A stretch of DNA of 64,000 bases from Spirogloea muscicola (lineage: Eukaryota; Streptophyta; Zygnematophyceae; Spirogloeales; Spirogloeaceae). The DNA is taken from assembly GCA_009602725.1 (NCBI GenBank), contig WELB01000191.1, positions 205,677-269,676 on the forward strand, given 5' to 3'. Within the stretch, counting starts at the first letter, position 1, and each line of letters begins with the position of its first letter. A program made the translations under genes and the position numbers. A model generated the notes under the pieces. It searched no databases, was not told the DNA's origin, and saw only the letters and a program-made list of their open reading frames with translations. Shown piece by piece: positions 13,311-44,100 of the stretch.

Positions 13311-13339
13311 TTTATCAGCCCTCCGCCCCATTTAAAAAT

Positions 13340-13410: not shown

Positions 13411-13427
13411 AACCACCTTCCTTTGGA

Positions 13428-14880: not shown

Positions 14881-15214
14881 GTGGCTCTCCTGAAGGGGGC
14901 GAGGGCTGTGAATAGCCACACCGAAAAGAACTGACAAGGTCCGAAGGGGCCAAAAAGCGTTATTTCAAAAAGCGTTCCAGTAGGATAAGCACTTAACAAG
15001 CTCTGATGAGGAGCCGCAAATCAGAGAGACTAGCAGCCGTAAAGAAGAACAGCGTTTGCAAATTGACTGGTGGCTGTGAGAGGCCAGCCCAAAAGAATGG
15101 AAAGCGACCCCCCTGACGAAAGCCAAAGGCTTCAGCTAGAGCACGACCGGCACGCAGATACAAGACGTGGGCCGTGGACCGCTGGAGTGAGGTGGAGAGG
15201 CGCATATGTGCCAC
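14881..15214 (-). mobile_element. LINE C-terminal region and tail
   Basis: Read on the minus strand: MRLSTSLQRSTAHVLYLRAG and RALAEAFGFRQGG, then a foreign tail piece with GGCTGGCCTCTCACAGCCACC (split copy at 15105-15060), then AASLSDLRLLIRAC and a tail with hairpin remnants at 14915-14935. The interruption in the middle of the conserved C-terminus shows insertion of one tail into another copy. Confidence 0.7.
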
Positions 15215-15259
15215 ACAGGGAAAAGAGAGAAGACGCTTCCATTAGTAGAGGGCCATGGC

Positions 15260-15510
15260 TGTGATAGAGAAGTGGCTCTCCCAATGGAGGCAAGGGCTGT
15301 GAGAAGCCAGCCCGAAAAGAATGACAAAGTTCGAGGGGGCCAAACTACGAAGGGGCCAGAAGCGCAGTCTCAAAACTGTGAAAGGCCAGCCCAGAACAGA
15401 CACTGCAGAATTAAAAGGGGCCAGAGGAAGCGCTAATACACTGTGACTCAAGTGGTCACGTGCCGGAAAAGCCGGAAAGCCAGCCCAACAAGAAAGAACG
15501 AGTTCGATAT
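15260..15510 (-). mobile_element. Stacked LINE tails
   Basis: Minus 15360-15260 is a full tail module with GGCCCCCTCGAAC, hairpin CAGCCC (15308-15313) and GGGCTG (15294-15299), and CCATTGGGAGAGCCACTTC. Two further partial tails occur at 15410-15370 and 15505-15470. No coding segment is attached. Confidence 0.7.
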
Positions 15511-15539
15511 TACAGCTCTGCCAATCTACGGCAACGGCT

Positions 15540-15805
15540 GTAAGAGAAGTGGCTCACCCAATAGGGGCAAGGGCTGTGAAAAGGCAGCCCGAAAAGAATT
15601 GACAAAGGTGTGAAGGGGCCAAGTGACGGAGGGGCCTAAAGCGCTAGGTCAGAAAGGGTGGAGGATGGACCACTCAATAGCTACGACTGAGGAGCCTCAA
15701 ATCCGACAGACTAGCTGCCGGAAATCAAACCCCCTGACGAAAGCCAGAGGCTGCAGCCAGAGCACGACCAGCACGCAGATGCAAGGCGTGGGACATGGAC
15801 AGGCG
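15540..15805 (-). mobile_element. LINE C-terminal fragment with tail
   Basis: Minus 15800-15715 encodes SHALHLRAGRALAAASGFRQ and the start of the terminal segment. It continues into GGATTTGAGGCTCCTCAGTC, TGGTCCATCCTCCACCC and the hairpin (CAGCCC 15585-15590, GGGCTG 15571-15576). The coding part is identical in order to the copy at 58900-59052. Confidence 0.75.
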
Positions 15806-15809
15806 TGGG

Positions 15810-16110
15810 ACCTTGTCCATTCCTTTGAGCTGGCCTCTCACAGCCACCAGTCAATTTGGTTGCGCTATTTTCTGACATGCTATTCCGATTTGCAATTACT
15901 GACTAGAGGTTACTGAGAGCCCCCTTGCTGCCGTCTTAGCACTTCGTGCCTTGCTTTCTGCGCCATCTGGCTCCTTCAGACATCGTCCATTCCTTTGGGC
16001 TGGCCTCTCACAGCCACCAGTCCATTTGGCAGCGCTGTTTCTGACATGGACCGCTGGAGGGAGGCCAGCCCAAGGGAACGTACAAGGTCTGCAAGGAAGT
16101 GCTTCGCCCA
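15810..16110 (+). mobile_element. LINE 3' ends
   Basis: Tail pieces at 15815-15860 and 15985-16030 share GGCTGGCCTCTCACAGCCAC. Between them 15880-15916 encodes YSDLQLLTRGY-stop followed by GAGCCCCCTTGCTGCCGTC. A short minus-strand tail (GGCCAGCCCAAGGGAACG on plus) lies at 16060-16085. Confidence 0.7.
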
Positions 16111-16496
16111 TAGAGAAGGTCTGGAAGGGCAAGGAGCCAAGAAAGAGAAGTGCGCTCTCGTCTCAGAAGCGCGCCTCGCCTTTCATGGCCTTGTCATGGG
16201 CAGCAAGTACATGGCTGGCCCTCACAGCAGCGTCGGCAAGCCCCTCGTCTGCTGCGGGCGAGCTCGGCGTGTCGGCAGTGCGGCGCTGGACCGGAGGGGC
16301 ATGAAGCTGCAGGGCAGCGCCCCGTGAGCCCGGGGGTGGCGCAGCTGGCCTGCCGAGAGCCACGCCCCTCCTGCCGCGGCCCCCCCCCCCCGCGACGGCG
16401 GGGCCCCACTTGGCTGTGACACCGCCGCTCTCCCACACGGCGCCTCCGCCGCGCGCTGCTGGCAGCCTCAACGTGGGGCCGCAGCCTGCCGCCGGC

Positions 16497-22114: not shown

Positions 22115-23399
22115 GCTGCCTGCAGCTTGTTGAGAAAGTCTCCTAGAGTGGCAGGTGGAATACAAGAGGTCGGGCAGTGGTGCTTTGGGCAGCAGGAATA
22201 GTCGCAGCACTGCAGGGCACGTTGGTGAAGGCTGAAATTGGTGATTGCACTACCATCACGAGGACGTAGGTATCCATTCCCCAATGCACATAAATGTTTT
22301 CCTCCTTACAAATAGACAGACCCCCACACCACTTTACAGGCTTGCACGTCCTTCAGGCATCCTAATGACATTGATGCAGGGGGCTGTGACACCGTGTACA
22401 GACAGGACAGACACCATCTCTTGAGTATTCTTTTCATTAGCTGCTCGTGCCCGTGTGGCTGTGTGCCTGGGAGCATTGCAACCAGGCCGTAAAGACCCCG
22501 GCAGGGGTCAAGGTCTAGGTGGTGCAGCAGGCTGGGAGGTGTGCATATTGCCATCCTGAGACAATAGCTGTTGACTAGCTGGGGCTCGAGGGCTGCTCTG
22601 CATCTAGCCAGACAGGGGTCCAGTGTTTCAGAATGATGAGAAGCACTGGCAAGGGTCAGCACTGGCAAGAATTACTTCTTATTATGACATCCATTCTTAC
22701 AGTCATCAAAGTGCACTGTCACACCGAAAGGCACATCCGGAGCAGGGTCCCCACGGCCAAGCCAGCTCACCATTCATCCTCAACCAGAGGACGCACTCCC
22801 GTAGAGGCACTCAGTGATGCCATTATTAAGCAGCTGCGTTTCAGCTCAGCAGCCAGCCTGTCATTGTTATCCTACACTAGTAAAATTGATAAAGAAGTCA
22901 CCTCTCCCATGCCCGTCCTCTCTCTACTATATTCCTTAGTGACCAGTTGCTCAAGTCCATTCTCCTCTTGTAGGTTCGCATGGAGGCACTTCTACAGGTC
23001 CATTTTCTCAGGCGCAAATCGTGTAGGAGGTTGAAGGCGTCTGCACGGACACGGACCCCGTAGGCGGCAGGCCTGATATTGGGTAATGCACGTACTCAAA
23101 TGTAGCTGTGAGTAGGTGACTCATAGCCTGTCACTCCATTGTCTGATATCCCGGTCCCTCTTATTTGAGAAGCTGCCTTATATGTGACTACTGTCAGAAT
23201 ATTTTCCCTGCCCTGCGCCAGCATGCGGAGGGGTGCAGGAGAAGCCAGGGGGCCAGCAGCACAGGCTGGAGTGCCAGTCTGGCGGGCACCAGCGGTGTTG
23301 TGGAGGGGCCGTGAAGGCCACCAGCCAACTTTAAACAGAGATGAGCAGAACGAGTGAGCTGCACTACAAGGGGTCAGCAGCTGCCTGCCTGGGAAGAAG
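22115..23399. other. Intergenic
   Basis: This is the presumed 3' UTR of CAMTA and spacer. No domain-bearing frame, RNA gene or clear repeat was found. A small open frame at 22633-23034 has no recognisable features. Confidence 0.4.
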
Positions 23400-23560
23400 G
23401 AAGGTCTTTCTATACGGGAGCAACAGCTGTGAAAAGGCCAGCCCAGTAAGGAATGGACACGGTCCGAAGGGGCCCGAACGTGCTGAAGCACAACGCTATG
23501 CAAGTGTCTAATACAGATGGTGCTCAATAGCCCCTAGTCAGCAGCCGCAAGCTGAGAACA
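23400..23560 (-). mobile_element. LINE 3' end
   Basis: On the minus strand the family end SLRLLTRGY-stop is encoded at about 23550-23523. It is followed by a tail with CCTTCGGACCGTGTCCATTC, then TGGGCTGGCCTTTTCACAGC at about 23445-23425. Upstream coding sequence is not recognisable. Confidence 0.7.
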
Positions 23561-23939
23561 TACCACCATGGCGAAACTGAGAGATAGCAGCCAAAGCGCG
23601 GCCTGCCGGCAAGTGCACTGCCTGCAAAAGCCTGGGAATACTGGAGCAAGACTGGAAGATGCATGCTGGAAACCTGAGTGAGCTATGCAGCAGCACAGAA
23701 GCCGGGCTGCTCCTTGCTATCCTTGACGTCCACTTATTGCATGCCGTGCAAGCTGCTGCAGTAGGTCCAGCCACCAAGGCCTTGATGGCCAATGGACGTT
23801 GTTTGCTGCTCAAAAAAGTAAGTCACCAGCAGGGTGGTCCGCATACTTGTGCTCCTTGACGCTCGCAGCCTTGCCGACCGCGTGCCCCGCCTCCTCCAGT
23901 TGTTTGGCTGGTTTTGTGCGGTGCGATGGAGTCTGTGCT
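23561..23939. other. Unassigned sequence
   Basis: A minus-strand open frame at 23813-23538 and plus frames here show no recognised domain. The stretch may be older LINE sequence beyond recognition. Confidence 0.3.
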
Positions 23940-24790
23940 TATGATGTCAGCAATGATGTGGGGGGGGGGGCCTCCAGGGGGTCGGCCCCCCCGCATGTCG
24001 AGACGACTGTCTGCCCCAGCTGAATTGGCATGACGAAAGCGTTCTCAATGACGGTGTGACCAGCCCAGCCTCCAAGAAGAAACAGCAAGGCGCCAAACAT
24101 ACTATTGTGGAGTAGGTCGTCTGTGCCAGTCCGCTCCTCTCGTGCGCAAGGTGGAGTATGTGTGCAAGCAACTCGGCAGCGTCGGCACTGCATGCTCCAC
24201 ATCATTATTCCACCTCATCAACGAGGCAGGGCCGATGTTGACCGAGGAGGCGGTGAATGGCCGTCTGGATGATCTCGTTCAGCATCTGAGCCGTGTGGAT
24301 TGGTAGCGCCGTCAACCACGCCAGCGTCCCTGAGAAGATACAGGAAACAATCACGCGCGCCCAGGTAAGTAGTCCTTTGGAAGGAGCTCCACAGCCGAGC
24401 CGAAGGCTGCCTTCTCCACCTCCGCCATGTAGCACGCTTGGGCTTGCAGGTCAGGGGTATGCGCGAGGTTCGCACACGGAACTGACCGCTGCACCAGGTC
24501 GGAATGAGGGCCGCCTGGAAAGGCTAGTGTGCGGATCTTCAGGTCCGCTGCCGCCTGCTCCAGCGAGCACCGGCCATGCAGGATGAACAGCTGTAACACG
24601 GGACCGGCGACCTGCGCCCAGCTGCCCAGGTACGCTGCCCGGAAGCCGCAAGTAACGGCCATAGAGATGGAAATCCGCATGCATTACACCAGGGCCAGGG
24701 AGCCCACGGTGTTGAAGTCAGCCAGCTCCCCGCGCCGCTGGCGGAACACCGCGAGGTCGCGCAAGCTGGTGCAATAGGTCGAGCCACGGA
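23940..24790 (-). mobile_element. Degenerate LINE fragment (thumb to endonuclease region)
   Basis: Read on the minus strand, 24680-24560 encodes FRAAYLGSWAQVAGPVLQLF (PAYLGCWAQV in the large LINE). Minus 24190-23960 encodes CAREERTGTDDLLHNSMFG and then AFVMPIQLGQT, aligning with CAKGSERTGSHNLLRDAMYG and GVMPVQLRNG. The order agrees with the large copy at 30750-31400. The frame is broken several times. A run of 10 G at about 23958 and C-rich strings occur near the end. Confidence 0.7.
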
Positions 24791-24824
24791 GCCTCAAACG
24801 GGCCCACGCCGATGGCTGGTGTGG

Positions 24825-25055
24825 CAGACTCATCCTCCACCGGATGATAAGCGTACTCCGTATGTTTGCCTCAGGCTACTGCGTGTCCTGCTGTCAAGGC
24901 TGAGGACACCAGATAGGAGCACTGGTGACCACATCCGCAATGAGGTGTGGCCCCCGCCTGGCGTGGTGGCCACCAGGTCGACTTGCCGGGTGCGTAGACC
25001 GTCAGCCCTCATCTGGATGGGCATGACGGATGTGTTGTCGACGGCCAAATCATTC
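24825..25055 (-). mobile_element. LINE endonuclease fragment, separate copy
   Basis: Minus 25048-24950 encodes VDNTSVMPIQMRADGLRTRQ followed by VDLVATTPGGG. This is the start of the restriction-like endonuclease as in the large LINE (VMPVQLRNGVPRTRRVDLV). It lies upstream of the fragment at 24790-23940, which contains an earlier part of the protein, so the two must be different insertions or a rearranged copy. Confidence 0.7.
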
Positions 25056-25490
25056 CCGCCTCCACGGAGATGCCGACGCTTGGGTTTCCGGAGGACGTCA
25101 CGCCCGCTCGCCTCCGTGTGCCGCCAGCTCCGCTACACCGGTCCCCCGTTCTCCGCACTCCACACTCGCACTGCAGCACCCCCGGGCAGGGCGGAGGCAC
25201 CCCGCCTGTGGCCCGAGGCTGTGGAGGAACGAGGCGCACGGCGGGCAACGAGGAGAGAGGGAGGCCAAGCACGCCCGGCCCATTGAGGATAGGGGCTGGA
25301 GAAGGCCAGGCCGGAAGGGAGAAGGCACCAAGGAGGAACCTCGGCAGCTACGGCGCACACTCTCCGTAACCCCTGCCACGCAGCCGCAGGTCCGAGACAC
25401 TGGGCGGCGGCTTGTGAGCACGGCCGCGGGCTCTCGCCGCGCAAGCCCCGCCCGCCCTCCGCCACCCGCGCTGGCCGCCCCGCCCCGCCC
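25056..25490. other. GC-rich upstream region of the next gene
   Basis: High GC, with long open frames on both strands as expected by chance. It probably contains the promoter and 5' UTR of the gene starting at about 25491. No motif was assigned. Confidence 0.4.
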
Positions 25491-27068
25491 ATGCTGCGCC
25501 GCGACGAGNGAGGGTTGCCGGGCGACGAGCCCTTCGGCGCCGGCAGCCCGGCTCCGCGCGTCAGCTCCTGCCGCGGCTGTCTCTACTTCTCCCGAGCCAT
25601 GCGCGACGCTGGAGGCGTGCCGCTCTGCCTCGGCCTCCGGACATCCGCCCGTGAGTGCCAACCGACCACGGCGCACCGGAAGCTCCTGTGCCGTTGCGGT
25701 GGAGCAGCGAGACAGTGGCGTAATCATGCAGGTCGGTTGGGTGCTCGGCAGCGGGGACGCTGGTCGCACGAGAGGAGGAGGGCGGCGAGCAGCAGCGCAC
25801 GGTGTCGGAGTTCCAGTACGCCTGCGTTGGCTATTCGGTCTACAACACGACTCGGCGAGCAGCCGCTCCCCCTCGGGTGCCTGGCAGCCCACCTGTAGAT
25901 GCGAGCGAGCTCCCGCTGTGCACCGGCCTGGAGGTGCGTGGCACACCAAGGCTATGTCCCTCCTGGTGGGCACTCCGCTGCCCTGCCCAGCGACTTGGTG
26001 TGTTGCGCACCTTTGAGTCTGATGTCAAAGGTCAGCGCGTCGTGAGGCGCTGGGGGTGTCGTGTTGCTAGCCTTCAGGTGTGCTTAGCCTGCCATGGGTG
26101 GAACTGACTGCTGGCTGCTTGTCCTTCTGCAGCTCCTGGTGGACAGGAAGCTAGACGACGATCGTCATCGAGTACCAGTATCACGGAGCGCTGAGGATGA
26201 CCCTAGCACAAGTACATCCGAGCAAGGTAAGAAGCTCAGTGGTATTCCTCCTCTGTAAACCCAGGGGTACACAAGCACCACCAGGGTAGAAGTACCACAT
26301 TGGCAGAAAAGTGGGTGATTCATGTCTGGTACTGTTGAGGGAGAAGAGGTTAGGTCTGCGTTGCATATCAGTGTGGCAGTGTGTATTGCTGCGTCAACAA
26401 GGCAGAGCAACTCGGCGGTGTAGTTCCTGCATGTGGGTGCAGACGTGCTGGACTACTTGCCAATCTTCTCACTTGTACTACTTGCTTATGTTGTCTCGCT
26501 GATGGTGTGGCTGCAGAGTCTAAGCCTCTCATTCTCCCTCGGCCAGCTTCTCCACCCATGCGGCCTGCGCTACCGGGAATTGGCAACGTGTCCAGAGACG
26601 AATTCTTGACGAGGCAAGAACCTCAAATGTGCTGTTGTTTTTGCTCAATGTCTGCCCACTGTTGTGCTGCACGATGAGCCCGAGTAAGTAAGGCTGGATG
26701 GCCGCTCAGTGACAAGAGCTGCCCCAGGTAGCACATAGATGGTGATGAATGATCGTGTCCAGAGTGAAAGAATTGTGAAGCATGTCCAGTCAGACAGCCC
26801 GGCACCATGGAGATGCTGGCTTTGTCGCAGGAGAGAAATAGTGTCGCGCCTTAGCATGTTGACGTGCTTGTGGCAGATAGCCAAGGAAGGCTGGAGTACC
26901 TTTCTATATGAGGGCATGAAGTCGTTATTGATCTCGTCTCGGTGTGACAGGTTTGTGAGGTCGGCCGGGCTGATCGCCAACAAGATGGCCAGCAACTTGA
27001 GCCGGGCAGCTGGGGCCGTGAAGGCAGGTATCGAGCACATATATTCGGATCGAGGAGAGCCAAAATGA
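25491..27068 (+). CDS. Plant/green-algal conserved protein of unknown function (GCLYFS...PLCLGL family)
   Basis: Five exons join in frame: about 25491-25650, 25752-25933, 26133-26226, 26517-26613 and 26951-27068. The first part reads SSCRGCLYFSRAMRDAGGVP then LCLGL. It is followed by VSEFQYACVGYSVYN, ELPLCTGLELLVDRKLDDDR, NVSRDEFLTRFVRSAGLIAN and a basic end closing IEHIYSDRGEPK. This order matches a land-plant family with CKGCLYYSS...CIGISR, ACVGYSVFLD and a conserved C-terminus, which I believe is catalogued as DUF8204; no function is known. The intron after 26613 has a GC donor (gcaaga) rather than GT, and only this choice keeps the conserved DEFLTRFVRSAG in frame. The start is insecure because an N lies at 25509. 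Confidence 0.75.
25509..25509. other. Single N inside the first exon, likely assembly join
   Basis: The lone N sits between two copies of GCGACGAG (about 25501-25508 and 25521-25528), in GC-rich sequence about 18 bases after the proposed start codon. Bases may be missing or duplicated here. Confidence 0.75.
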
Positions 27069-27662
27069 CCACGGTGCTGGGGCGAGGGTCCGGCATTGCC
27101 CGAGCCACAGGCTGCAACTCTGTGTCCCCAGCAACTATTGAGTAGTCAGCTTTGGGTGCAGTGTGATGTATGCTGTACATATGCACGGCTGTTGCTTTGC
27201 TGCAGCCGTGCACAGCCTCCAGTCACCAGTCACAATGGAAGCGCCTTTTCCTTTGCTGCGCGGACTTTATCCAGCCCAACAGCTCAGAGAACCCAGCACA
27301 GCAGAACCACACTGCATGACGGGTTCACCAGGGTCACGGTATGTTGTGGTGGCCCTAAACCCTAAACCCTAAACCCCTAAACCAGCTGGCAAGTCGAGCT
27401 GAGACAGGCGTCAGCCTGAGCAGAGCCCCGCTGCTGATGTTCTCCTGGCAAGCTTTTCCACCCGACGAAAGCTCGTCATTGCCGAGCTCGTCATCAAGCG
27501 AGCTTCTTCAGCAATGGCACGCAACGCGCCACTGTGCTACTCGTAATCATGAGTGCTACTCGTGTTCATGAGCCACTCTTCCACTTCTTGTTGGGTGCCA
27601 GAAGGTGCTAAGATTGATTCCTGAGTTCCGCACTGCTGGGTTGAGCAAAAACAAAGAACAAC
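27069..27662. other. Intergenic with an interstitial telomere repeat
   Basis: This is 3' flank of the preceding gene. Apart from the telomere-type array at 27353-27383, listed separately, no gene, RNA or repeat was recognised. Confidence 0.4.
27353..27383 (+). repeat. Interstitial telomere-type repeat (CCCTAAA)n
   Basis: Four head-to-tail units of the plant and green-algal telomere heptamer: three exact CCCTAAA and one CCCCTAAA. It sits 31 bases long in the middle of an intergenic region about 300 bases from a LINE 3' end. Possible origins are telomere healing, double-strand break repair or LINE activity; the sequence alone does not decide. Confidence 0.85.
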
Positions 27663-27860
27663 GCGGCTGCTGATGTCAGAGTAGCGGCTGGAGAAGCCAG
27701 CGAGGTCCATACAAAGGGTGTTCACGATCGGAGCCACAGGCTGGGCAGTCAGGGCGCTCTTAGTGCCCCCAGTTGTCCGTCGTAGGAAGTCAGATGAGCT
27801 GAGGGGAGGAAGAGCAAATCCGCAGACGGGGCTGCCCGCTGCGTCAGGTCGGGGTGGGCC
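27663..27860 (-). mobile_element. Inverted LINE 3' end, same subfamily as the large LINE
   Basis: The minus strand from about 27845 reads GFALPPLSSSDFLRRTTGG, against GVALPPLSSSDFLLLTRGY at the end of the large LINE. It continues through the same 3' UTR: ACTAAGAGCGCCCTG, GGCTCCG, GAACACC, GCTGGCTT, then CATCAGCAGCCGC at 27663. It lies in opposite orientation to the large LINE and about 150 bases upstream of it. Confidence 0.8.
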
Positions 27861-27994
27861 GCTAGGAGCACACCGCGGGCCGAGCGGAGGGCCAGAACTA
27901 AGACGAGGGCAGCAAGCCACTTGGTTCTCCTGGCAGCTGCGGCCTCGGGACCCGGGGACCCGCGACCACCAGGAGCCCAGCTTCTCCGACCTGC

Positions 27995-28018
27995 CGCTCT
28001 TTCAATATCAGCAGCCGC
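27995..28018 (+). repeat. TTTYAAYATCAGCAGC motif copy at the LINE 5' side
   Basis: Matches the motif found in the LINE 3' UTR at 31960-31983 with one mismatch. Its place just upstream of the large LINE could mean that this LINE landed beside an older LINE tail, or that the element carries the motif at both ends. Confidence 0.6.
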
Positions 28019-28019
28019 A

Positions 28020-31000
28020 TTTTCATTCTCGCCTGCGAAGGCACGGCGCGCACCTGCGCGGCGCGCTCCTCGGAGCTCGCCGCGCAGAGTGCCGTCCGCA
28101 GAGCGACTCCCAGCTGGTGGGGTCCCTCATGCCACGCCGTGCGCTGCGGCGGCCATGGCGGTGGCGAGGGAGGATACGGCACCTAGGCAGCTTGCACAGC
28201 CTCGTGCGGGGGACATGGGTCCGGCTGCCCAGCTCACAAGCTGGCTCGGCCGGCTGCGTTCTAACCCTCGGCTCACTTGTGCCGGGGAGGAAAGCGCACT
28301 GGCGGCCAGCACGAGAGCAGTGCACCGGAGCTCCAGGAGCTGCGGCGCTACGCGCTCATCCCGGGCCCCACCAGGCCCAGGGATGGACGAGGCGGCTGTC
28401 CCGACCACGGCCCATACACCATCCGAGATTGCTGTGGAGGACAACATGGAGAGGGGCACAGGACCTCCTCACCCAGTATCCTCTCCCACTGCTTCTCATG
28501 CTGCTCTACTTACGGGCTTCGAGCCCTACCCACAACCAACGCCGTGCACCTCTCCCGCGTCTGCAGGGCAGGCGGCTTCCGCAAACCCTCCTCCATCTTG
28601 GAGGGGAGGTCGCCGCAGCGGAGGAGCCAGGCGGCGCTTGGAAGTGGTTGTCGCCATGGGTTAGGCGAGTGGTGGCAGTGGGGCAAGTGATGCTGACGGG
28701 CCCGTGGCTGGCGATGCCGCTGTATCAGCTGCACCTGGGGAAGGGGAGCAGGGCCAAGAGGACCTCCGGCCCCCTGCGGAGGCAACCTCTTGCCCGCCTG
28801 TGGAGCTCCGCTGCCAGCTCTGCCGGCGGCTCTGTGCCACCAAGGCGGGTCTGAGCACGCACGAGCGGGCCTGCGTGCGTTCTGCTAACAGACAGGCGCA
28901 GCAGGCAGAGGCATCCGCCACTGCTCGGGCTCGCAGAGCCCCTTCAAGAGGGCGATGCCAACACCACCACCAGGGCCTTCGGTAGAACACTGGCGGTGGG
29001 CGGAGAGCGTGGACGTCTCCGAGATCCTGCGGACGACCAACTCGCAGCTCTTACAACACATCCCGTATTGGGCCCGGCCTCACATACGGCGAGCCCTTCG
29101 GCCTCTCCTGACACGTCTGGCTCGTGACAGCGAGGATGAGGCTGCATGGGCTGTGTTTGTGTTGTTTCCGTGACTTTTGCTTGGTGGCCTGCCGCAGGGG
29201 AAGGCAGGTCGCAAGGAGCTGCTGCTGCGCCTCCACCTTTTTGAAGGTGGGGCGTGGCAGCTGCTACTTGCAAGGCACCAAGCGGCTGCGCAACTCGCGC
29301 AAGCCAACTATTGGCCCACCACATCGGAATCTGATATCAAGGAGGCGGGCAAGCGACGTGCCATCCGATTCGGGCGGGCCGGCGACCTTGCCAGGGCTGC
29401 CCAAGCCTTGGAGCCCTCCACACCAGCACCGCATGATGCGGCAACCCTGGCCGCACTAGAGCAGCTCCATCCTCCGGACCCGTGTGATTTTGAGACATGG
29501 ATGGAGAGCTTTACGCCTGCTCAACCAGTGGACTTGGACCCGGCAGTCTTCCGTCCGGCAACTGTGAGCAGCCGCAAGGCAGTCGCCGGGGGTCCATCTG
29601 CCATGCTCTTTGAGCACTTGCGGGAGTTGTATGGGGAGGACGACTCGGAGGATTTCGACCTGTTGCATAGGGGGCCCGCAACATGTTGCGCGTGGACACC
29701 TCACCCATCGTGTAGGCGCAGTCCTTTGCACAAGTAATCTCATTGCTTTGCTGAAGGAGAACGGCGGAGTGCGTCCCATCTCGATGGGGAGGTTCTGGCG
29801 GGCCTCGTGGAGCGCACCCTAATCATGCAGATCCAGGACGATGCCCAGGCGCACTTCCATCCCCACCACTTTGGAGCTGGGATGCGTGCCGGCGCTGAGA
29901 CCCTGGTGCACGGGGTACGCGCGGCAATGGATGTCAACCCCCATTGGCTGGCCTTGAGCGTGGACGTACGTAATGCTTTCAACTCCGTGGATCAGCAGGT
30001 TATTGCCGAGGAGCTAAGGCAGTACTTTCCCACCCTCCTTCCTCACTTCCGATGCATGTATGGCTCGCCCCCTGCATTGTTGTGGGGGCAAGGGAATTCT
30101 TTGGCTGTTCTGCAGTCAAAGACGGGGACACGGTAAGGTGATCCCATGGGTGGTTTTCTCTTCGCTCTGGCGCATCACCGTGCTTTGCGCAACACAGCGA
30201 GCGCTCACCCTGGCGTTCTCCTCCCGAATTATGCGGATGATACTATGCTCCTCGGCTCCCCAGAGGAGGTGCTGCGAGCTTTCGGCACGCTTCAGCACCA
30301 GCTCCAGCTCATCGGGCTTGGGCTAAGTACTGCCAAGTGCTCTGCCTGGTCCCCCAACGGCATCCCTCTTGCCCTCCTTCCCTCCTTGCCAACATCTTGT
30401 CAGACGCCAGAGGGTGGCTTGAGGATCTTGGGAGTGCCTGTAGGGGACCCGTCTTTCTCGGAGGGTGCTGTCCTTGCTCGTCTCAAAGAAAACATGCAGG
30501 TCCTGCTAGAGCTCCCCACCCTCGGGGACTCTCAGTTGGCAGTGGCCATTTTGACCAGGAGTGTGGCACAGCGGCCATGTTACCTCCTAAGAACGGTCCC
30601 ACCTTCGGTTACAGTGGATGAGGTCTATGAATCCATAGATGTCAAGCTCCAACGATGCCTTGCTGACATGATTGCTCACCCACTCCTAGAGCAGTCCCCA
30701 GCAGCACTGGTGCAATGTACGCTGCCCATACGTCACGGTGGGCTTGGTTGTCGCCCCTTGGTCCGCTTGTGCAGACCAGCGTACCTTGGCTGCTGGGCTC
30801 AGGTGACTTCGTCCATATCTGGACGATTCCTCCTTGGGCAACAACGTGGTTCAGGGGAGTCTGCCTTTCCAAGTGACTCTCAAAGCATGCCAACAGGACC
30901 TCTTTGCCGCGTACCCGCCTCTGGTAAATGAGCCTGTTAGTTTTGCTGCCTGGGCTGACGTTTCTGATGTTAAGGCTCAATCGCGGTTTTCCCGTGCTGC

Positions 31001-31985
31001 AGACACGTAACTATCTGGAGCATCTCCGGAGTCTCCTCCAAGGAGATGCTCGAGGCCAGGCTCGGCTCCTATCTGTTTCGTCTCTGGGAGCGTCTGAGTG
31101 GCTCCGCGCTTCTGCATGCAGGCTTGCGGATGGAAAATGCTTTGTTTTGCGATTCTATGCGCCGCCGTCTTGGCTTACCCTGTGCTTGGCAGGGGTGACC
31201 CAATGTGAATGTGGGCTTATTAATCATGATGCATTGCTCATGGGTGATCATATGCTCAGGTGTGCCAAAGGCAGTGAGCGCACGGGCTCCCACAACCTCC
31301 TACGGGATGCGATGTATGGCATTGTCAAGGAGGCGGGATATCAAGTGGCATTGGAGAGCACCGGGGTGATGCCCGTCCAACTCCGCAACGGGGTCCCTCG
31401 GACGAGGCGTGTCGATCTGGTTGGCGTCCCCCTGGGAGGTGGCAAGCGGCTCCTCATGGACGTCGTCCTCACCGACAGCTTCCGGAAGAAGGGCCCCATA
31501 ACTTCTGAGACCGGCTATGCCGTGAAGGTGGCCGAACAGAAGAAGTTGCAGAAGTACAAGGACCACCCGGATGGTTATACCTTTTACCCCCTGGCCATGG
31601 ACATCCACGTGTGTTACGGGGGTCGGTGGTCCTCGTTACTTTCGCTGCTGGCATCTCAAGCTGACCAGCGGCGCCGGGAACAGGGTGCAGCACTTCCTGG
31701 AGGCTCCGTGCCTTTGGGTCTTGTGTCCTGCTACCGCATGCGATTGTCCATGTCCCTCCAGCGCTCCCAAGCGCTTGCTTTGCACCGCCGCGCCGGTCGC
31801 GCCCTTGCAGCAGCCTCTGGCTTGCGCGGCGGGGTTGCTCTTCCTCCCCTCAGCTCATCTGACTTCCTACTGCTGACCCGGGGGTACTAAGAGCGCCCTG
31901 TCTGCCTAGCCGGTGGCTCCGTCAAGAACACCTGTATGCATCTGGCTGGCTTTCACAGCCGCTCTTTCAACATCAGCAGCCGCCT
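28020..31985 (+). mobile_element. Non-LTR retrotransposon (LINE) with restriction-like endonuclease, most complete copy
   Basis: Domains in order: an N-terminal zinc finger CQLCRRLCATKAGLSTHERAC-type (Cys-x2-Cys-x12-His-x3-Cys) at about 28815-28875; a linker at 28955-29700; a reverse transcriptase with VDVRNAFNSVDQQVI and the catalytic YADD at 30230-30241; a thumb GGLGCRPLVRL and AYLGCWAQV; a knuckle CECG...HMLRC at 31202-31262; a PD-(D/E)xK-type endonuclease RTRRVDLVG...LLMDVVLTD at about 31400-31475; and a conserved tail RMRLSMSLQRS, RRAGRALAAASG and DFLLLTRGY before the TAA at 31888-31890. The single-ORF layout with zinc finger and C-terminal restriction-like endonuclease places it near the R2/NeSL/CRE type rather than L1. 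The frame is interrupted at least four times (stops near 29173, 29737 and 30136 and a shift near 30930), so the copy is not functional as read. The 5' limit is uncertain. Confidence 0.85.
31960..31983 (+). repeat. TTTYAAYATCAGCAGC motif in the LINE 3' UTR
   Basis: Follows the hairpin-like GGCTGGCTTTCACAGCC (31943-31960) at the LINE 3' end. Sequence after about 31984 no longer matches the other copy of this tail at 27663, so this is close to the true 3' terminus. Confidence 0.65.
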
Positions 31986-32055
31986 CCGCTCTAGCGGCTG
32001 CTTAGCTGTCTTAGCAGTGCTGCGCTTTGCAGCTGCAGCTGCAGGCCCCCCCCCA

Positions 32056-32073
32056 NCGACGCTCTTCCGATCT
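32056..32073. other. N followed by Illumina adapter sequence (assembly artefact)
   Basis: Directly after the N at 32056, bases 32057-32073 read CGACGCTCTTCCGATCT. This is identical to the last 17 bases of the standard Illumina read 1 adapter. A run of C precedes the N. The sequence here is a false join; the distance and content between the LINE and the VPS13 start codon are not reliable. Confidence 0.93.
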
Positions 32074-32104
32074 GGGAGGCCGGCGGCGGCGGCCGCACGC
32101 AGCC

Positions 32105-35100
32105 ATGTTCGAGGCGCATGTGAGCGTGCCCCCCCGCCGCCCCGGCTGCACAGCCGGGCCGTCGGGCACCGGCCGCAGCCCCGCACTCACGACCGTGCCG
32201 TTTGCATAACTGGGGCTCCCGCCGCGGGCCGCAGGTCCTGTACCTGCTGCGCCGCTACTTGGGGGAGTATGTCCGCGGCCTGTCAGCTGAGGCCCTCAGG
32301 ATCAGCGTCTGGAAAGGCGAGCGACGGCCTTGCGCTCGCCCTCCGGCTTCGCACTGCATGAATCTGCGCTGCCACAGCTGCCCGCACGCCTCCCGCCTTG
32401 CTCGGCCCCTCTCTGCGACCCGCCTGGGCCGGGCATGAGACTGGGCATGGCAGAAGAGACTGCGGCTGGACTCGTGCATTGACGTGGCAGCTGCCTGGAC
32501 AGCGCTGTTGGAGGTGAGGCTCTATCTGTAGGTCCAGCGGACCAATTGTGCCTCCTGACTGTGCGGTGGGTGTGGGGGAGCGTGGTACAGGGGACGTGGT
32601 CCTCAACAACCTGCAGCTCAAGGCGGAGGCCCTCAACTCGCTGCAGCTCCCGATCACCGTCAAGGCCGGCTTCCTGGGCTCAGTCCGCCTCAAGGTCTGC
32701 CCACTGCATCTTCTCACCGAGCAGCCAGAGGGGAAGGCTGCGGCTCGCGGTCAACGCAGTTGGGGCGGTCGAGGACGCAGATTGAGCGTGCTCCTACTGG
32801 TCTGGGCCCTTGGCCCATTCGTAGGTGCCCTGGAACCGCCTCGGGCAGGACCCTGTCATTGTGCTCCTCGACCGCATCTTCATCCTCGCGGAGCCAGTCT
32901 CCGATGACTTCGCCTACCAAGTGAGTGCGATCGAAGCATAGGGTTGAGGGAGTCACTGTGGTGCCGACTGTAAGAGAGGCCCAGCCAGGGCCACTTGAAC
33001 TTAGGAATCTGAGCTCTTGTCTCATAGCAGGTAGCTCTTTCCAGTTGCTCCACTATTCTCTCTCCCCTGAATTGCTTCTTCCAATACTACACTCCTCTCC
33101 ACGCCACTCTCCGTGGGGCCCCTCCATGCTGGAATACCCTCGTAAAGGTCATCTTTCCTGATGTGGTTATCCTCTGCACAAGCTCCCTTTCTGAAACAGA
33201 ATCTAAGAGACGTTCTGAGAGTCTGCCGGCAGCACAAGAACGTGCTGTCGCTTCCTGCTCTATCTGTGCTCGCTGTTGGCCATCAATGCCTGCCCTTGAC
33301 TATAGCTCTGGCTTGGCCTGTGCGCTCGTGCACAGGGCCAGACCCAGGAGCAGCAATTGGAGGCCAAACGGAGGAGGCTAGAGGTTTGCGCTTGCCTCCA
33401 ATCATTAGGCTATCTGTCTTGTCAACCTTCTGGCAGCAGCTGGTACCATTCCGCCGTGCCGTTTCGTCACCACAGAGAAACCCTCCTCCCTTGACCGGGG
33501 TGCCTTGGTGGCATTCAGGAATCGGAGATTGCACTTTTGAAAGCCAAGGATAAGAGTAGCAACCCAGCTGACCAGGTATATCCGCAATTGCTCCTGACCA
33601 TCTTACTCTTGATTGTGAAATCAGTACAAGGAGAAGAGGTCCCAAGAGAAAGAAGGTCATTAGCCCACTCGGGTTTCCCTCTGCTCTTTTGTGCATACTT
33701 GCTGCTCCTTGACCAGGGCTAGTGGTGTTGGCAGGCTCCGGAAACCAGCTCCTGGCTTGGTTCACTGATCGCTACCGTGGTGGGCAATCTCAAAATATCC
33801 ATCACCAATGTCCACATCCGCTATGAGGACACACTCAGGTCCTACTGCTCATCGCAGCGTCATTGCTTACCTGCAACACACCGCTGTACACAGAATATGT
33901 GGCCTTGTCATGCAGATGGTTTGCTGCCTGTGAGCAATTGCTGAAGAAGTTAGAGGTTGTTAATGGGCTGCAGCAATGTGAGCCGCCCATTCTGCATGGG
34001 GTTCATGCTGGCGAAGCTGGCAGCCGTCACCGTCGATGACGATGGCCACGAAACCTTCGCAACGAGCAGCGCTCTTGAGCGCCTCCGAAAGGTAAGCTGA
34101 GCATGTTCAGACAGCCTCCTGCAGGCTGGCTTCAAGCAGCTCTCACAGCACCCTTGTGCAGCTTCCATTCGCCTCTTTGGCAGCAGCTGAAGAAGGATGA
34201 CTGGTACTAATCTGTCTACGAGTCTTTCCACAGGCTGTACAATTGGAGAGGTTGGCCGTGTATCATGACACAGATTGCAAGCCCTGGCAAGTCGAGAAAA
34301 GCTGGGATGCCATGTCTCCTTCTGAGTGGAGTGAGGTTAGTTACACCCTCGTCTGTGCAATCCCAACTTTCTCTGAGTGAACCCTGCAAGACGCCCAACC
34401 AAGCAGAGCAGCGCACTGACATCCAAGTGCCTGCAGATGTTTGAGCCAGGTATCAAGGACGATGTCCCAGACAGTGATACGCTTGATGATGCAAGAGACA
34501 ACAATATGCAAAAGACACAGCCAAGGCAGTACCTGCTGCATCCTGTGCATGCCAGCATGCGCTACTTGCGATTGGGCAAGAACGAGAAGCGAGAGCCAGA
34601 TGTGCCCCTCCAGACCGCCTCCCTCGACCTTGATGACGTCACGCTGGCAATCTCAGAGGTACTTCTCTTGCTTGACACAAGGCAGTAGTCACAGGCAACA
34701 GTCTAGGGGCCTTCAAGTTGGCAGGTCTGATTGTCGAGCCCATAACTTTGATAAAGGAGAGGCACAAGCAGCTGAGTAGTGCACCGAAACAACACCTCGG
34801 AGAGCTTGATTCAGCCGGGATGCAGAAGTTTTGGACCGACATGTAACCACCATTGTTTTGCAACATTGGACTTGCACTTGGGCTGCTAATTACTGAGCCT
34901 CTGCACTTTAGATCACTGCTGACAAGTCACTCTTTCACTCCTTCCTGGTCTTTATAGTCACCTACATTACAGTGTCCGCTGATCAATTGAGACGAGCAAG
35001 TCGTGGCAAGGCTTGACTGATGAGAGTTTCGGCGCTTGTTTTGACAACAACAGAGTCAGTACTGCGATGGCATTAAGCTCGCAGCCCGCTTCTCTGTGTA

Positions 35101-38100
35101 TCGCACACGCCTTGAATTTGCCCAACTCCGCCCTGCAGCCCGTGTAAGTGCAAGTCCTGCTGCTTGGTGGCAGTTCGCCAGCAACGCCGTGCTACAACAA
35201 CAACAACGGCTTCGGTATGCTGGACAAGCTTCTGTATAAGAGACGCGCTTTCAGAAACCCAGTGTGCAGATTGTGTGCACCAGTGGATGTAATTGTCAGC
35301 AGTCTGCTCATTTGGCTACGTACATGCTCTGCCCTTTGCATCACCTCTTCTGAGGTACTTGTCAGCGGGTAATTGAGAAATATGCGTGTTGTGAATCGTG
35401 AACCTCTTTGCATGTATTGCTTCTTATCAAGTACTTGAATTTGTTGACCAGGCATCGGATGTCCTGGCCTGCTATTTTTAGCATGTGCTCAAAGAGGCGC
35501 TCATACGTGGAGCTTTACATTGCATGCCTGAAGCAAGGCCCAAAGGCCGACACAAGTGCCATCCAGAACCTCGAAGCAGAGCTTGACCCAGAAGTCATTC
35601 TGCTTTGGAGGTCAGTAGCTCTGCCCTTGGACTGCTGTGGCAGCCCTCAGGGGTGCGCTTATTTCGAAATCGAAATGCTGAGCAGCAACCTTTGCAATTG
35701 TGGCCAACACAAGATCTGTAGAATCTTCCAGAGCCTGGAGGTTGTCCCATGCTCTTATATTGCGCATGCAACTGCAACCCCCTCCAGGATGCTGGCCCAT
35801 GCACATGTCGAGCGAGCAAAGTCCAGGGAGTCAGCTGCTGAGCGGGAACGCTTGAGGAAAAGTGCGTGGTGGTCCTTTGGCTGGTACGACTACGCCTGAC
35901 TCCTCAAAATACCCTTTGTCTTGGCAGCAGAACAGGATTGGTTCGCTTTGCAGTCTTAGCTCACAGAATATCATTGCTGATTGGTCGTTGGAATCCAATC
36001 TGGTCACTTGTGGGCAGGGGTACTGGCCAGCAGCAGCAACAGCAGCAGCATATGGAGGACGAGGCGCCTGGTAACCTAAGCCAGGAGGAGTGGAGCAAGA
36101 TCAACGAGCTGATGAGCTACACGCCCGATGAAGTTGCGGCTGGGGGCCCCACCAAAGAGGAAGCCCCAAACATGCAGCAAGTTGCTGTGGACATCACGAT
36201 GCAGCGCAATACTGCACAGATCTTGGATTGCAACGGGGCGGACATTCTGAACGGCTCCTTTGTGTCTCTCAATCTGGCTTTGATTCTCTATCCGAAGACC
36301 GTGCATGCAAAAGTCACTCTTCAGTCCTATGATTTATCCTCTCCGGAGGGGACTTTAATTCAGGTGGACCGGTCTTGCTCCCGTGCTTTTTGTACGCTTG
36401 TCCTATTTATGTATGAAGTGTGCCTCAATGTGAGTACTGGTTGGGGCAAGATGTACTTACTGTGTCACAGTGGAAGAGCATGTGAGGGGTACACCAATTT
36501 AAGGATAACCCTGTTGCAACAAAGTGCGTTTCTGACTTGACAGAGGGAACCTTAAAGATGCTACGGCATTGCTCACCGCTTTAGAACGAGGCTTGATGTC
36601 ATCCCTTGGCGTTTTCTACTGCAGAGTGTACATAGAGCAGGGCGCGAAGCTGCACTGGCCGCAACTTTTGTACAACATCCGCTTGGTCAGCAGCTTGATT
36701 GGATGCTCACGGCAACCATGTCCCCTTGTCATGTCAATGTAGGCAACTTTGTCCCTCAAGCTTGACTTCCACAGCAGGTCATAGCACAGGACCCCTCCTC
36801 GTCTTGCCTTTCTGTATTCACATTCGCTCTACCTGTAAGACTTGGACTTGTTACTCACGAAGCACCATTTGCTTGTTGGCCCAAGATTTGGAGAAGTAGC
36901 GCAGATAGATTCTTCAAGTTCTTGAAGAGCGGCCAAGAGGCCAGCCCCAGCCTCGTCCTTGAGACAGCTGCTGCTGTACAGGTAAAGGACATCCCATTCA
37001 TGTAAAGAGAGTGAAAGAGCAGCGCAATACGCGTAGATCCTAGTGGGATGATACCTCAAAGTCTGGTCTGGGCAGCATATGGTCTGGGAAGGAAGCATCA
37101 CACTGGGTGCCATGCATGAAGACCAATGCTGCAGGGTTGCAGGGCACAACAACTGACATTGGCATCTTGATGAGGCGAGCAGAGTCAATTGGAGGCAGTC
37201 CGTAAGCAGGCGCAAGAGCAGCTGCAGTTGGTCCTCCAAGAACGCAGCCGGTTGGTACAGTATAGCACCCCGCTCTGACTGCCCATGCTGCAACCGTTCA
37301 GCAGATTTGTGGCAGTGCATCGTGTGCTGCCAACTGACTAGTTCGTTCAGTATTGTGTAGGTTTTCTTTGGACTTGGACCTGGATGCCCCCAAGGTCACG
37401 ATCCCAGTTTTGGAAGCAGGGGGCGACAGATGCAGTACACAGCTCTTGGTTGACCTCGGTCATTTTCGGCTACAGACAGAACCGGTACTGCAGTATGTGC
37501 TGTCATTCTCTGCTTAGATTTGTTGAACGAGTTTTGCAGGGACACTGAAGAGATCAAGCTGCACCTGTGCAGGAAGGGAGTGGCCAGGATGAAGACGGCA
37601 ACAGCCGGCTGTACATGCGACTCCGGTTGGAAGGCAGCGACATATCTGCTTTTCTTGCTGATGGTGCTTATGATTGGGTCAACCCTCCTGAATTGGCGGG
37701 GATGCAAGTTGCGGCTAAAGGTGCAAGCACCGAGGACGGCAACAGTATCACAGGCCGGACGACGCCAATCATACTTCCTGTTTTAGATCGCTGCTCCATG
37801 TCCGTTGCATTACATCAGGTAAATGAAAGGGAGCTGATGATGATGATGATGTCTTCCACTCTGTTTGTGCTGTTGAAGTACCTGCCTGCTTCTGTGCACA
37901 GTTGAGAGGGCTTGCTGATGCCTGACTGCAAGTGTGCAGATCCTGGTTGAGCACGCATCGCTGCCGGCCACTCGAGTGGGCATGCGGGTGCCCCAGCTTG
38001 GCTTCCACTTTTCGCCTGCACGCTACCGAAGGCTGATGGCCGTAGTGTCCGCTCTGAGCTCGGCGGCAGATCCAGAGAGCTCGACCTCCTCTTCCATGAT

Positions 38101-41100
38101 GGAGCACCCTCAGCAGGATGCTGCATGGAAGCAGAAAGCAGACCTGTCGAGCGATCTATCTGTGCTGACTTGGACGGTGAGTGCCTTCTTAAGCCAGAGC
38201 ACTCTGAGGGGGAATGGCTGCCGTTGCTGTAAAAACTGTTCATTGGTCCCACTAGCCCCTCACAAGTCACTGCTGACTTGTCTGCTTGTGTATGCATCTG
38301 GTACATCCTGGTATGTTGTTTGGCCATAAAGGATGCACATGTAGCAACAGCAGGGATGTGATTACCCTGCACATTCAGATACTTTCCCTCCCGCATGATC
38401 TGCAGGGCCTAGGTAACAAGGTGGCCGAGTGGCAACCTCGATGGTGTGTACTAGCAAGTATCTACTTCTATGTTCTGGAACACGAACCTTCTTCGACATA
38501 CTTGCAGTATGTCAGGTAAGTGTTGTGTACATTGCCAACAGAACCACACTGCCCCAAAGCATCCTCATTTATCATGGCAGGTCTTAGATCTACCACCCAC
38601 CCTATGTGATTGCTATGCCCCTGAGTCCAAGAAGAAGAGCAGGAGAGCAGAGCTAGTAGTCATTTGACTGAGCTGTCCTGTGCACAGCTTGGTCGGCAAG
38701 CAAATCGTCGAAGTCCCACCAGAGTTTATTGGCGGTTCGCAGCATGTGCTGGCCATCACAGCACGAGGATCCGACGTCTCCAAGGTTATCATGACTAAGA
38801 TTTGCGTGAAACCACTTGAAGAAGCATGAGTAGTTGGATGCAGCAAGCACAGGTCACACACGGCGGCTATGACCAAGTGTAAGCAGCAGTAGGAAGAGCC
38901 TACTTGACTGCTTAACTGGGACTGTGCAGATCCATGAATCAAGACAAGCAGTAATCTTGCAAGCCAAGGACAAGGATGTCAAGGACACCTGGTTGGACCA
39001 GCTGACAAACGCCGTCTACCGGACCTCTGTACTTTTCGTGTGCCACATGTTTTGGTATTGACTTGTTCACATGTTGTTAGGTCTTGGAGATGATCAGGAG
39101 TCAGGTGTTGAGGTCCCGAGTGTCAGCATATTGGTTGAGCTTATACTCCAAGTCCTCTGAGCTTCTCCATTTGATTGAGGCTTGACGCTTGTCTGACCTC
39201 GTTCTGAAATGTCCTGCAGGCACGTGCCGCTGTAGCAGGCCTCGGAGACGATCAAGAAGCAGAAAGTCCAGGAGGCGCAGATACACGCGTGGAAGAAAGT
39301 GGTGCGCAAGCAGGTCAAGCAGATGCTGGCAGTCAGCAACAGCTTTTTGTGATTGGAGTCCTGGATGAGCTCAAGCTTTCGCTCAGTACAAAGGTGAGCA
39401 TTTGTCCCGGAGTAAGTGCATACCTCGTTTTTCATATTTTACAAGGCACTTGCAGTGGAGTTCATTGCCAGTCCCAGGAGGATTCAGGCCATCTCACAAT
39501 GCCACACGCTGTGCTAGTCCGTTCCTGGTGGCATTGACAATTGGTCAGGATGTCTAAGCATGCCGAGAAGTCTGCTTTACCCAAGTTGCATTGGGCATCC
39601 ATTATACAAAGGCTGCTTCAACATGATGACCATTTCCCTTTCTGTGCACCATAAGAGTTCATTCTCAACAGTCGAAGTAGTGGTACCTGCTCCTATCCTG
39701 GCTTGCAGAAACAGACTGCAAAGGATCACGAAGATGCCAAGGACCTTGAAGAGGTAGCTCTTCTCGAGTTGCGAGCAAGCACAGCAAAGGTTCATCCACC
39801 CCTCAAAGCACCCTGCGATGCGAAAATTGTGTTATCGTGCATTGCCAGCAAAACGGATGTCTGCACCTGCAAGGAGGTGGATGAGTCTGAACGGGAGCTG
39901 GGGTGGGGTAGGTGGAGTTTGAGCAACGGCTCTATGATCTCTCTCTGGCGGTGGCACTCAGGGCTCTTCAAATTGAGGACTTGCTTTCTGGATCCATTGC
40001 TCCTTCTTGCCGACACATGGTTCGGTCTGCTTCTCTGTCGGAGCAGTCAGCAGCGGCCTCTCCTGACGATCTTGACGGTGGAGCAAGGCATCCGGTCCCT
40101 GTAGCTGATGATGCGGAGGAGATAGATGACGATGACAGCTTCGCAGATGCCGTGGAAGAGCTTCCAGGATCACCGGACTCCATATCAGCTACCCCAAAGA
40201 GACGAGTGCAGCCTAGACAGGGCGTAGAACCCAAGGAGCAGCAGGTCATGGTTGCTCTTGATGCACCTTCGTTTGAGGGCGCGGGAGGGCTACTTCACTT
40301 AGCAAATGCACCCTCCAAATCCAGCAACTTTGTGATCATGCAGCTTAGTATGCTAGGGTCCAAGTCTCCAGACTATGACAACACAGACATGCAGATGTTT
40401 ATCCGCATGACCACCTTGGAGCTCAACTGCAACCGACCTACTCTTGTCGCACTCATGGAATTTGGAGCTCATCTCACCCTAGACAATATTGCACAAGACG
40501 TGAATGAGCCTGGCCGAGCAGAGGCAGCCACAGTAGAAGAGCCAGAGGCAGGTCAGGTGGCAGCACCAGACACCAAGAATGTTGTGGCTGGGCTCCTAGG
40601 CAGGGGCAAGACCCGTACTACGTTCCGCCTGCTCATGGATATGGAGAGTGCACATGTAGCACTCAATTTGGAAGATGGCTCTCAGCTGGCAACCTTGGCT
40701 GAAGAGAACCTTCACCTTGACATCCGGGTCTGTGAAATCTCTTTCTCTGTCTTGATTGAGGCACCTGTCCTTTTACGGCAGAATGTACTCCTGGACATGA
40801 CTTCCATGCTTGTGGCACGCTTCATTTGTTCTATGCTTTTGATCCTCTGCAGCTTCGAAGTCTTTGCACAAGTTTCAGCTGTTACAGCTTCGTGGCTCCC
40901 TCAGAGGTCACATTTTCAAGGTCCGCATGGTTGTTACTTTGCAGCTCCACCCCATGTCGATGGCTGTCAATGTGGGACTTGGAAATCTGCGCATATGCGA
41001 CTCACGGCTGGGCAGTGATCACCAGTGGGGATACATGTGCAACATTCGCGACCCAAATTCATCGTCACTTGTCTCGGTATGTGTGTCACCCTTTGGGATG

Positions 41101-44100
41101 AACTCGCATGAGGGTTTCAACATGTGATTGTGTGAGGTAACCTGCAGTTTGAAGACAGGCATGTCATCAATCAGTCAGCCACAGCAACTTACCCTCGAAT
41201 TCTACTGATTGGTGGAAGTTGCTCCGCAAATTGCTCCACATCAAGTTGCTCCACGACTTTGCATAAATGTCAAGCTTGTCCGCTGTTTCTGCTGGTGGTC
41301 TTGCCAGATCGAGTTTCTGAGCTTTAGCAAGGACGATGACGATTACAAGGGCTCTGAATACAGTCTAAGTGGAAGACTATCAGCTGTCCGCATTATCTTT
41401 CTGTACCGCTTCATTCAGGAGGTTACCAGCATCCCTTACTCTGTCCATTGATATTGACAAGCTCCCAGTATTCAACATGCAATCCTTTCAATAAGCCCTT
41501 GTGCTAGCTGCTCCTCAATTGCCAACCAGTTTTGCTGGACGAATCGTTTGTGCAGTTGGCAACATACTTTTCTGCCTTGGCAACGCCCACAGCTGGCCAG
41601 GTTGTGTCTGTCTTGGATCCAGTGGGTGGCTTTGAGCGACTCATTCAACAGTCAGACATGGCTGGCCAACCTGGCTTGTCGCTGGACTTCAAGCTTGACA
41701 GCCCGCTCATTGTCATGCCCCGAGATTCAAACGCACATGAGTGAGTTGCAATGTACAGCACCCTGCCTTGCTTTTATTCTTGAGTTTGTCCCACTGCTTG
41801 TTGTCCTAGCTACAGGCTGAGGCCTCACAATCATATGGCATGTTATAGTCTTCTTGCCGTTCACCTGTGGCACTTATTTGCTGCGCAGAGTGTATTTATT
41901 CTAGAACTTCTTGGGCTATCACTGCATGCTTTGTGCATGCTTCAAGTGTATGCTTCACCCTAGTGTGCTTTCCTTCTGTGAGCAGCTACATCCAGCTTAA
42001 CGTGGGTACCATGAAAGTCTCCAATGCTGTGAGCTGGCGTGGTGGAAATAGCGAGGATCCAACATCAGTCCATCTTGACACAATCTACATTTATGTAAGC
42101 TTTGGGTTGTGTCTATCGACCTCCTGTCTGACAGAAAATGGCATTGCCGTGTGAGGCTTGCTGAAGCATGCTACCTCAGGCCAGTTGCTGTACGCTGAGC
42201 ACAAGCCAGGAGTTTTAAATCATGGCATCCGTATACATAAGCGTATACATAAGCTTGCAGCTCAATGCAGATGACTGTTTTGTAACGTGCTCCTCGCCTG
42301 CTCCTGATGGCCCAGAATCAAGATCTGAACCTGTTGGTGGGAGTGAATGGCAAGGAGAGCAAGCCCATGATGCAGAATGTGGCTGCACTTTCAGTAACTG
42401 TGCGCCGGCCGCTGAGAGATTTATTCAAACGGGTGCCATCCCTTGATGTGGATATTCAGGTCCTGCCCTTTGGGACCTCTTCCACGCTGTTATAATTTCT
42501 GCTTAGGTTCTGCCTCTCACTGACTGCCTCCCTTTCAGTTGCTATTGCTGTGTGCTGCAAGCCAGTGGTGGCTGCTCCCTCATGAGGAGATTATTTGCAT
42601 GTGCGCAGGTGAAGAGCCTTGGTCTGGTGATGTCAGAAAGAGAGTACGGCATTGTGACCTCTTGCGCAGGTGCCAATATGAGTGAGACTCCCAACTTGCC
42701 GGACGACTTTCGTGCAGACTGGCAACTGCCACTCAGCGAAAACAAGAGCAGACCTGCTCCGGCAAGCAGCGCTCAGAAAGCAGCAAGCCAAGTTGCGGTT
42801 CCTGACACGGCCAGTCCTGCAACAAGCATGCGGGTGGTGGTGAATGTGATGCAAGCAGACTTGGAGCTGTACCTGGACATTGAGCGAGAGGCTTCGCTAG
42901 CACGTATGCAGGTCAAGGGCCTCTGGGTAGAGTACCGAACAACATCGGCTGGAGAGATGGGGGTCCTTCTGACGATCCCAACCCTCAGCGTTGAAGATAT
43001 GCGAGCAGGCACCAAGCCAGAAATGCGCCTCATGATGGGTTCCATAACGGATACTGACCGCTGGCCAGGTGCGGCTGCCCTGAAGCAAAGCCGGGAAGAG
43101 GGCAATGCAGAATTGTGCTGTCCCCTGACAATGGTTGTGATGGATGTGCGCTTCAAGCCCACCTCCCAGGCAGTGGTGATACGCATCCAGCGACCTCGAG
43201 TGCTAGTTGTCCTAGACTTCCTGCTTGCAGTTGGAGAATTCTTTGTGCCTTCTCTTGGATTGGTTGGCGGCGGCCGCGGCGGCAGCAGCACATCAGATCC
43301 TTTGAGTGGGCCAGTTGGGCACATCCAGCTCACAGGAGCCAGTCACAAGCAGCACAAGGAGATTGAGTGGCTCTCGCCAGACCGGCAGTTTGTTGCAGAT
43401 GCACCCGATGTGGACAACTATGAATACGATGGCCAAAAGAATACGCTTGAGCTGCTGGAGCATTCTGATGGACCCGTCCTTTCCTCTGCTCCAAGCTCGC
43501 CCTTGATTGTCGTGGGCCATGGCAAGACGTTGCGGTTCAGAAACATCCGCATTCTGGTCATGCCTTTCCCCATCTATGTCTCATGCCCCAATGTAGCTTA
43601 TAGGCACAGGAGAGGGAGGCAGCTACCCAATTGTGGCACTGTGATATTAAGCAGCAGCCTCCTGTACTATTGCTGCAGGGTGGAGCACATCTGTGGGCCT
43701 GTGTGAAGCTTGGAAGCAACAGTCGATACATGGCGCTCAGGGAAGATAATGTGGAGCTGTTGGAAACTGCAAGCACACACCCTGATGGTGCAGAGATCGA
43801 CTCTCCACTCGCTGTCAACAAGCAGGGCACAGAAGCTTCAGCTTCAAGCATCACCTCCACCGAGCCGTCATCTGCAAAAAGCACAGATCAGGAGTCTGCC
43901 AACTTTGTCTTTGATCTGCAGGTGCTTTTGTCATGTGCCCTCTACTTCTAACATACAATGAGAGCCCATATTTGTGGTTGACATGCTAATGTTGTATGTG
44001 GCCCCCAGCGCAAATGAGTCGCAGCAGGTTTCACCACGTGGCTTCACATACTGGCCTTGTCTCTACTGCTTGCAAGTATTGCTTAGTGCTTTCGTTACTT

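Follow-up and report, generated by a model that had tools for sequence, protein, structure and literature searches.

Remnants of Illumina adapters are familiar from draft genome assemblies, where they take the form of the 3' parts of the read 1 and read 2 arms, in varying lengths, at the edges of gaps. The adapter scrap that lies beside a VPS13 gene in the assembly of Spirogloea muscicola is an artefact of this known kind; it differs from the described cases in no essential respect, although many of the scraps in this genome are separated from the gap by long A or T pads. Errors induced by adapters have also been described for PacBio HiFi assemblies, and PMC8864876 lists among them the errant insertion of an adapter into otherwise collinear sequence (type A) as well as mis-joins (type C). 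The case considered here resembles the former, except that it involves an Illumina arm at a scaffold gap, and as far as tested it does not belong to the latter. Two further pieces of background bear on the matter. GapFiller, which is named here as one example of a gap-filling program, extends both edges of a gap with k-mers from reads, and closes the gap only if the two extensions meet in an overlap and the resulting length is right (PMC3446322). That short-read assemblies lose GC-rich sequence is established (PMC7757076). In the following, we describe the remnant found in a stretch of 64,000 nucleotides (hereafter the window, located in contig C191), and compare it with its counterparts in the whole genome that was searched (153.1 Mb, 471 contigs).

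The adapter remnant and its surroundings

Position 32056 of the window, which carries four Ns in all, is a single N that represents a residual scaffold gap. Directly after it, positions 32057 to 32073 of the forward strand read CGACGCTCTTCCGATCT, and all 17 of these bases agree with the Illumina read 1 arm at its insert-side end, as printed in section 23 of PMC12135582. The remnant is the 3' end of the arm with its insert side rightward, so that the adapter faces the gap and the insert lies on the opposite side. The expected count of the 17-mer in the window is 9.6e-6, as calculated from the base composition. The shorter 12-mer CTCTTCCGATCT, searched with at most one mismatch allowed, also has one match in the window, which is exact and falls at the adapter site; this count is weak when taken alone, as at least one such match occurred in 16 of 100 shuffles. 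The initial annotation had recognized the 17 bases after the N as the 3' end of the Illumina read 1 adapter, and both the full identity and the genome-wide recurrence described below bear this out. The 17-mer is an assembly artefact without biology of its own.

To the right of the remnant, 31 bases (32074 to 32104, forward strand) precede the VPS13 start codon, and comparison with the other copies of the gene shows that they are like those of contig C94 from 32080 on. Exon 1 of VPS13 (MFEAH; 32105 to 32119, forward strand) starts with the ATG at 32105 and is followed by a GT donor at 32120 and by exon 2 from near 32235, as judged from Pfam and from splice sites placed by eye. The first 91 residues of the protein, likewise spliced by eye, match the Pfam family VPS13_N from profile position 1 (E = 5.1e-37); because the match begins at profile position 1, the start codon is sound, and exon 1 looks intact.

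To the left lies a full-length copy of a multi-copy LINE-like (non-LTR) element (28030 to 31983, forward strand, the 3' end being approximate), which is delimited by ends shared with other genomic copies. With the best 40 candidates scored for each end, 37 of 39 other genomic matches start at query position 171, corresponding to window 28030, and 35 of 44 other matches end at query positions 184-188, corresponding to window 31983-31987. Two of its four reading frames gave a weak match to RVT_1 (E = 0.0021 and 0.044, both below the Pfam cut-off), and the other two gave none. The corresponding interval on C94 as assembled is without the element, with 168 bases vs 4.2 kb in the window, apart from what the N of C94 may hide. 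Between the 3' end of the element and the N there are 72 bp (31984 to 32055, forward strand), the last 23-30 bases of which, the C-run end, match C94 upstream of VPS13. Several side observations were made in this part of the window. A 26-bp piece resembling the 3' end of the element (27994-28019) immediately precedes the full-length copy on its 5' side, as if the two were arranged head-to-tail. A 13-base near-repeat (27933-27944 and 32035-32047) was considered as a target-site duplication that would prove the insertion point, and was rejected as such, since its score is low; it is only suggestive. Furthermore, a short minisatellite-like stretch at about 18510-18600 matches dozens of sites across the genome.

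The remnant therefore lies between the 3' end of the LINE-like element (at about 31983) and the VPS13 start codon (at 32105), where the initial annotation had placed it. The assembled interval from element to ATG measures 121 bases, of which 17 are adapter and one is the N, and the true distance is probably larger. The warning that any promoter, 5' UTR or LINE-to-gene distance taken here would be wrong also holds, since the interval includes the adapter and the N and sequence is probably missing from it.

Adapter scraps at gap edges across the genome

In the genome as a whole, the 16-mer GACGCTCTTCCGATCT has 21 matches, vs 0 for the reversed pattern, and the 13-mer GCTCTTCCGATCT, which is common to both Illumina arms, has 63, vs 0 for the reversed pattern and 4.65 expected from the base composition of the window. 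These counts, together with the expectation for the 17-mer, led us to reject a chance match. That the 17 bases are native genomic sequence which happens to look like an adapter is exceedingly improbable: they touch an N, as do 19 other adapter matches, and C94 was assembled without such bases before its VPS13, although two of the 63 13-mer matches (L032 and L065) do look like products of chance.

Each of the 63 sites of the 13-mer was inspected individually, together with a stretch of its surroundings. At 56 of them an N gap is found on the 5' side of the adapter, always within 150 nt of the insert-side end, and in all 56 the adapter points to the gap and the insert away from it. Within the stretches retrieved, the gap is a single N in 27 cases and longer in 29. 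Twenty of these 56 scraps abut the N directly, in 30 a run of five or more A or T adjoins the adapter, and 6 have other bases there. One scrap (L067) stands at the very end of a contig, and four (L021, L035, L036 and L058) lack an N within the stretch retrieved; L032 and L065 match the 13-mer alone, with no N, and are probably chance matches.

Both arms are represented, read 2 being the best-fitting arm at 34 of the 63 sites and read 1 at 24, with a tie at 5; two of the read 1 assignments (L040 and L063) are based on 14 bases only. The exact adapter at the gap edges is 13-25 nt long; if a slip of one base is allowed, it reaches about 31 nt in L014, L024 and L055. Although the lengths differ, all start from the same insert-side end, which is the pattern that sequencing through short fragments into the adapter should leave. 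Ordinary read-through does not account for the long stretches of A or T, because just 13-25 nt of exact adapter comes before them. The scraps are also unevenly distributed between the strands of the contigs, with 40 of 56 on the minus strand (40:16, p = 0.0018), an excess that random contig orientation does not predict and that a filler starting at the left edge would fit. At L011, L013, L015, L039, L056, L061 and others, an A or T run of about 124 nt separates the scrap from the gap, giving a total of 139-141 nt.

Six pairs of sites share identical first 20 insert bases next to the adapter. All six turned out to consist of paralogous sequences whose aligned parts have 86-100% identity and which carry the adapter at the homologous position in both members. 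This fits the recruitment of the same few adapter-bearing reads to both gaps. Four of the pairs allow a comparison to the left and to the right of the adapter (L010/L012, L036/L058, L047/L062 and L054/L064), and in all four the homology spans both sides; in the other two the alignment ends at the start of the N run. In the pair L036 (C16) and L058 (C137), the same fragment of the read 2 arm is fused at a homologous place with no N nearby, the stretches being 95% identical.

These patterns also bear on the stage at which the adapter entered the assembly. It might have stood at the contig end before scaffolding, and not have come from later gap filling, a variant of the explanation favoured below that would lead to nearly the same outcome at the sequence level and that agrees with the scrap at the very end of a contig. 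We consider it rather unlikely, as the recurrence of the same junction in both members of paralogous pairs looks more like gap filling, and so do the homopolymer pads, which bring 21 of the 56 extensions (adapter plus A/T run) to 128-150 nt.

Sequence order across the gap

The initial annotation regarded the remnant as direct evidence of a false join, that is, of contigs from the LINE side and from the VPS13 side that derive from different places and were wrongly scaffolded. An adapter together with an N does mark an unproven link, mis-joins are one known result of adapter contamination, for PacBio HiFi data at least (PMC8864876), and the LINE-like element has numerous copies, through which links can mislead. 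We therefore compared the window with other copies of the locus. From 32074 on, VPS13 has close copies on C94 (90% identity, from window 32080) and on C173 (88%, from 32128), and a distant copy on C23 (70% at its start). C94 matches window 10714-27870 and 32080-46647 in successive pieces of the same order. On C173, the block at 44.0-46.6 kb of the window is found at 37.9-40.5 kb, the VPS13 start at 51.8-52.3 kb, the block at 21.3-23.4 kb at 68.0-70.1 kb, and that at 16.6-18.6 kb at 72.8-74.7 kb. The neighbours of VPS13 are thus the same, in the same order, on the three scaffolds C191, C94 and C173, each of which has a gap at this place: C94 carries a single N 25 bases before the same VPS13 ATG, and on C173 exon 1 is lost in Ns, within a run of 14.9 kb that starts in intron 1 of VPS13.

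The left edge of the gap agrees with this order. Its last 23-30 bases, including the C run, resemble a point on C94 that lies 117 bp before the N of that contig, with a score of 34 that was reached by 0 of 10,000 GC-matched controls (best control 28), drawn from a pool from which six loci with a VPS13 start or the left flank of the window had been removed and window 27500-32100 excluded. An earlier control, whose pool still contained the C94 region, had yielded 3 scores out of 3,000 that equalled or exceeded the one observed. From the position of this match, and provided that the copies agree in this part, the window would be short of at least some 117 bp; probably, then, at least that much is missing at the gap and 17 foreign bases have been added.

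A false join is therefore very unlikely, and the comparison with C94 and C173 led us to reject it as the leading reading: the adapter at the gap edge shows where the supply of reads ended, and does not imply that the flanking sequences are not true neighbours, and an adapter beside an N is no proof of a false join without a check of synteny. As none of the three close copies (C191, C94 and C173) reads contiguously across the spot, the join is strongly supported but not proven. No N precedes the start of the copy on C23, but this copy is no help for the join, because its upstream side gave just short scattered matches to the window. On the strength of these alignments, the scaffold order across 32056 is most likely correct.

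The segment itself is present in three copies (window 10714-46647, C94:30000-59999 and C173:37860-74725), which are 86-92% identical in the blocks searched, and C23 holds a fourth copy of VPS13. The three copies stem from duplication of the segment or of the whole genome, or they are diverged haplotypes that the assembly kept separate.

Origin of the remnant and GC-rich gene starts

We consider it highly likely that the scrap is an assembly artefact at a scaffold link over the GC-rich start of VPS13 that is itself most likely correct, and that it arose when an extension into the gap ran into adapter. Illumina reads would have covered the GC-rich 5' end of VPS13 only thinly, causing the assembly to break there, and the two sides would then have been scaffolded, most likely in the right order. 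The assembler or a gap filler would have extended from the VPS13 side using a short-insert read, which presumably passed the end of its fragment at 32074 and so contributed 17 bases of the read 1 arm. As the two extensions would not have overlapped, one N would be left as the mark of an unclosed gap.

The other three Ns of the window are single as well, none of the four being assigned to a strand. The N at 10265 is GC-rich in its surroundings and lies 13 bases before an ATG; that at 25509, also GC-rich, lies 18 bases after the A of an ATG, and C94 likewise has a single N near the corresponding place; and that at 58595, which is very GC-rich, lies 10 bases after the A of an ATG. The GC content in 201 bp is 0.82, 0.79, 0.70 and 0.84 at 10265, 25509, 32056 and 58595, respectively, and between 0.02% and 4.7% of the stretches of the window are as GC-rich as these surroundings. 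A broader survey covered 183,251 bases, comprising the window and stretches that had been selected for other purposes (its contig flanks, the C94, C173 and C23 stretches and 19 LINE loci), and found 18 N runs, 10 of them single. Both 100-bp flanks are at or above the 95% GC value of the background (0.71) in 6 of the 10 single Ns, and at least one flank in 9, the single N at L083 having neither; these ten are not independent, as four lie in the window and two on its C94 counterpart. Apart from the one before VPS13, all single Ns of the window are extremely GC-rich and stand within about 20 bases of an ATG.

For the use of this assembly, these results mean that the start codon and first exons of VPS13 are usable, whereas the 121 assembled bases to the LINE-like element are no true distance. 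More generally, the 56 gap edges found here keep adapter scraps of 13-25 exact bases, and the bases adjoining them should not be interpreted as promoter or 5' UTR. In this assembly, a single-N gap may be the sign of a gene start. Since all three close copies have a gap at the VPS13 start, and since the single Ns of the window are GC-rich and beside ATGs, here taken as putative start codons, we tentatively raise the possibility that promoters and 5' UTRs share a GC-rich element refractory to sequencing, such as a C run or a G-quadruplex, and that gene starts might for this reason be systematically absent from the assembly.
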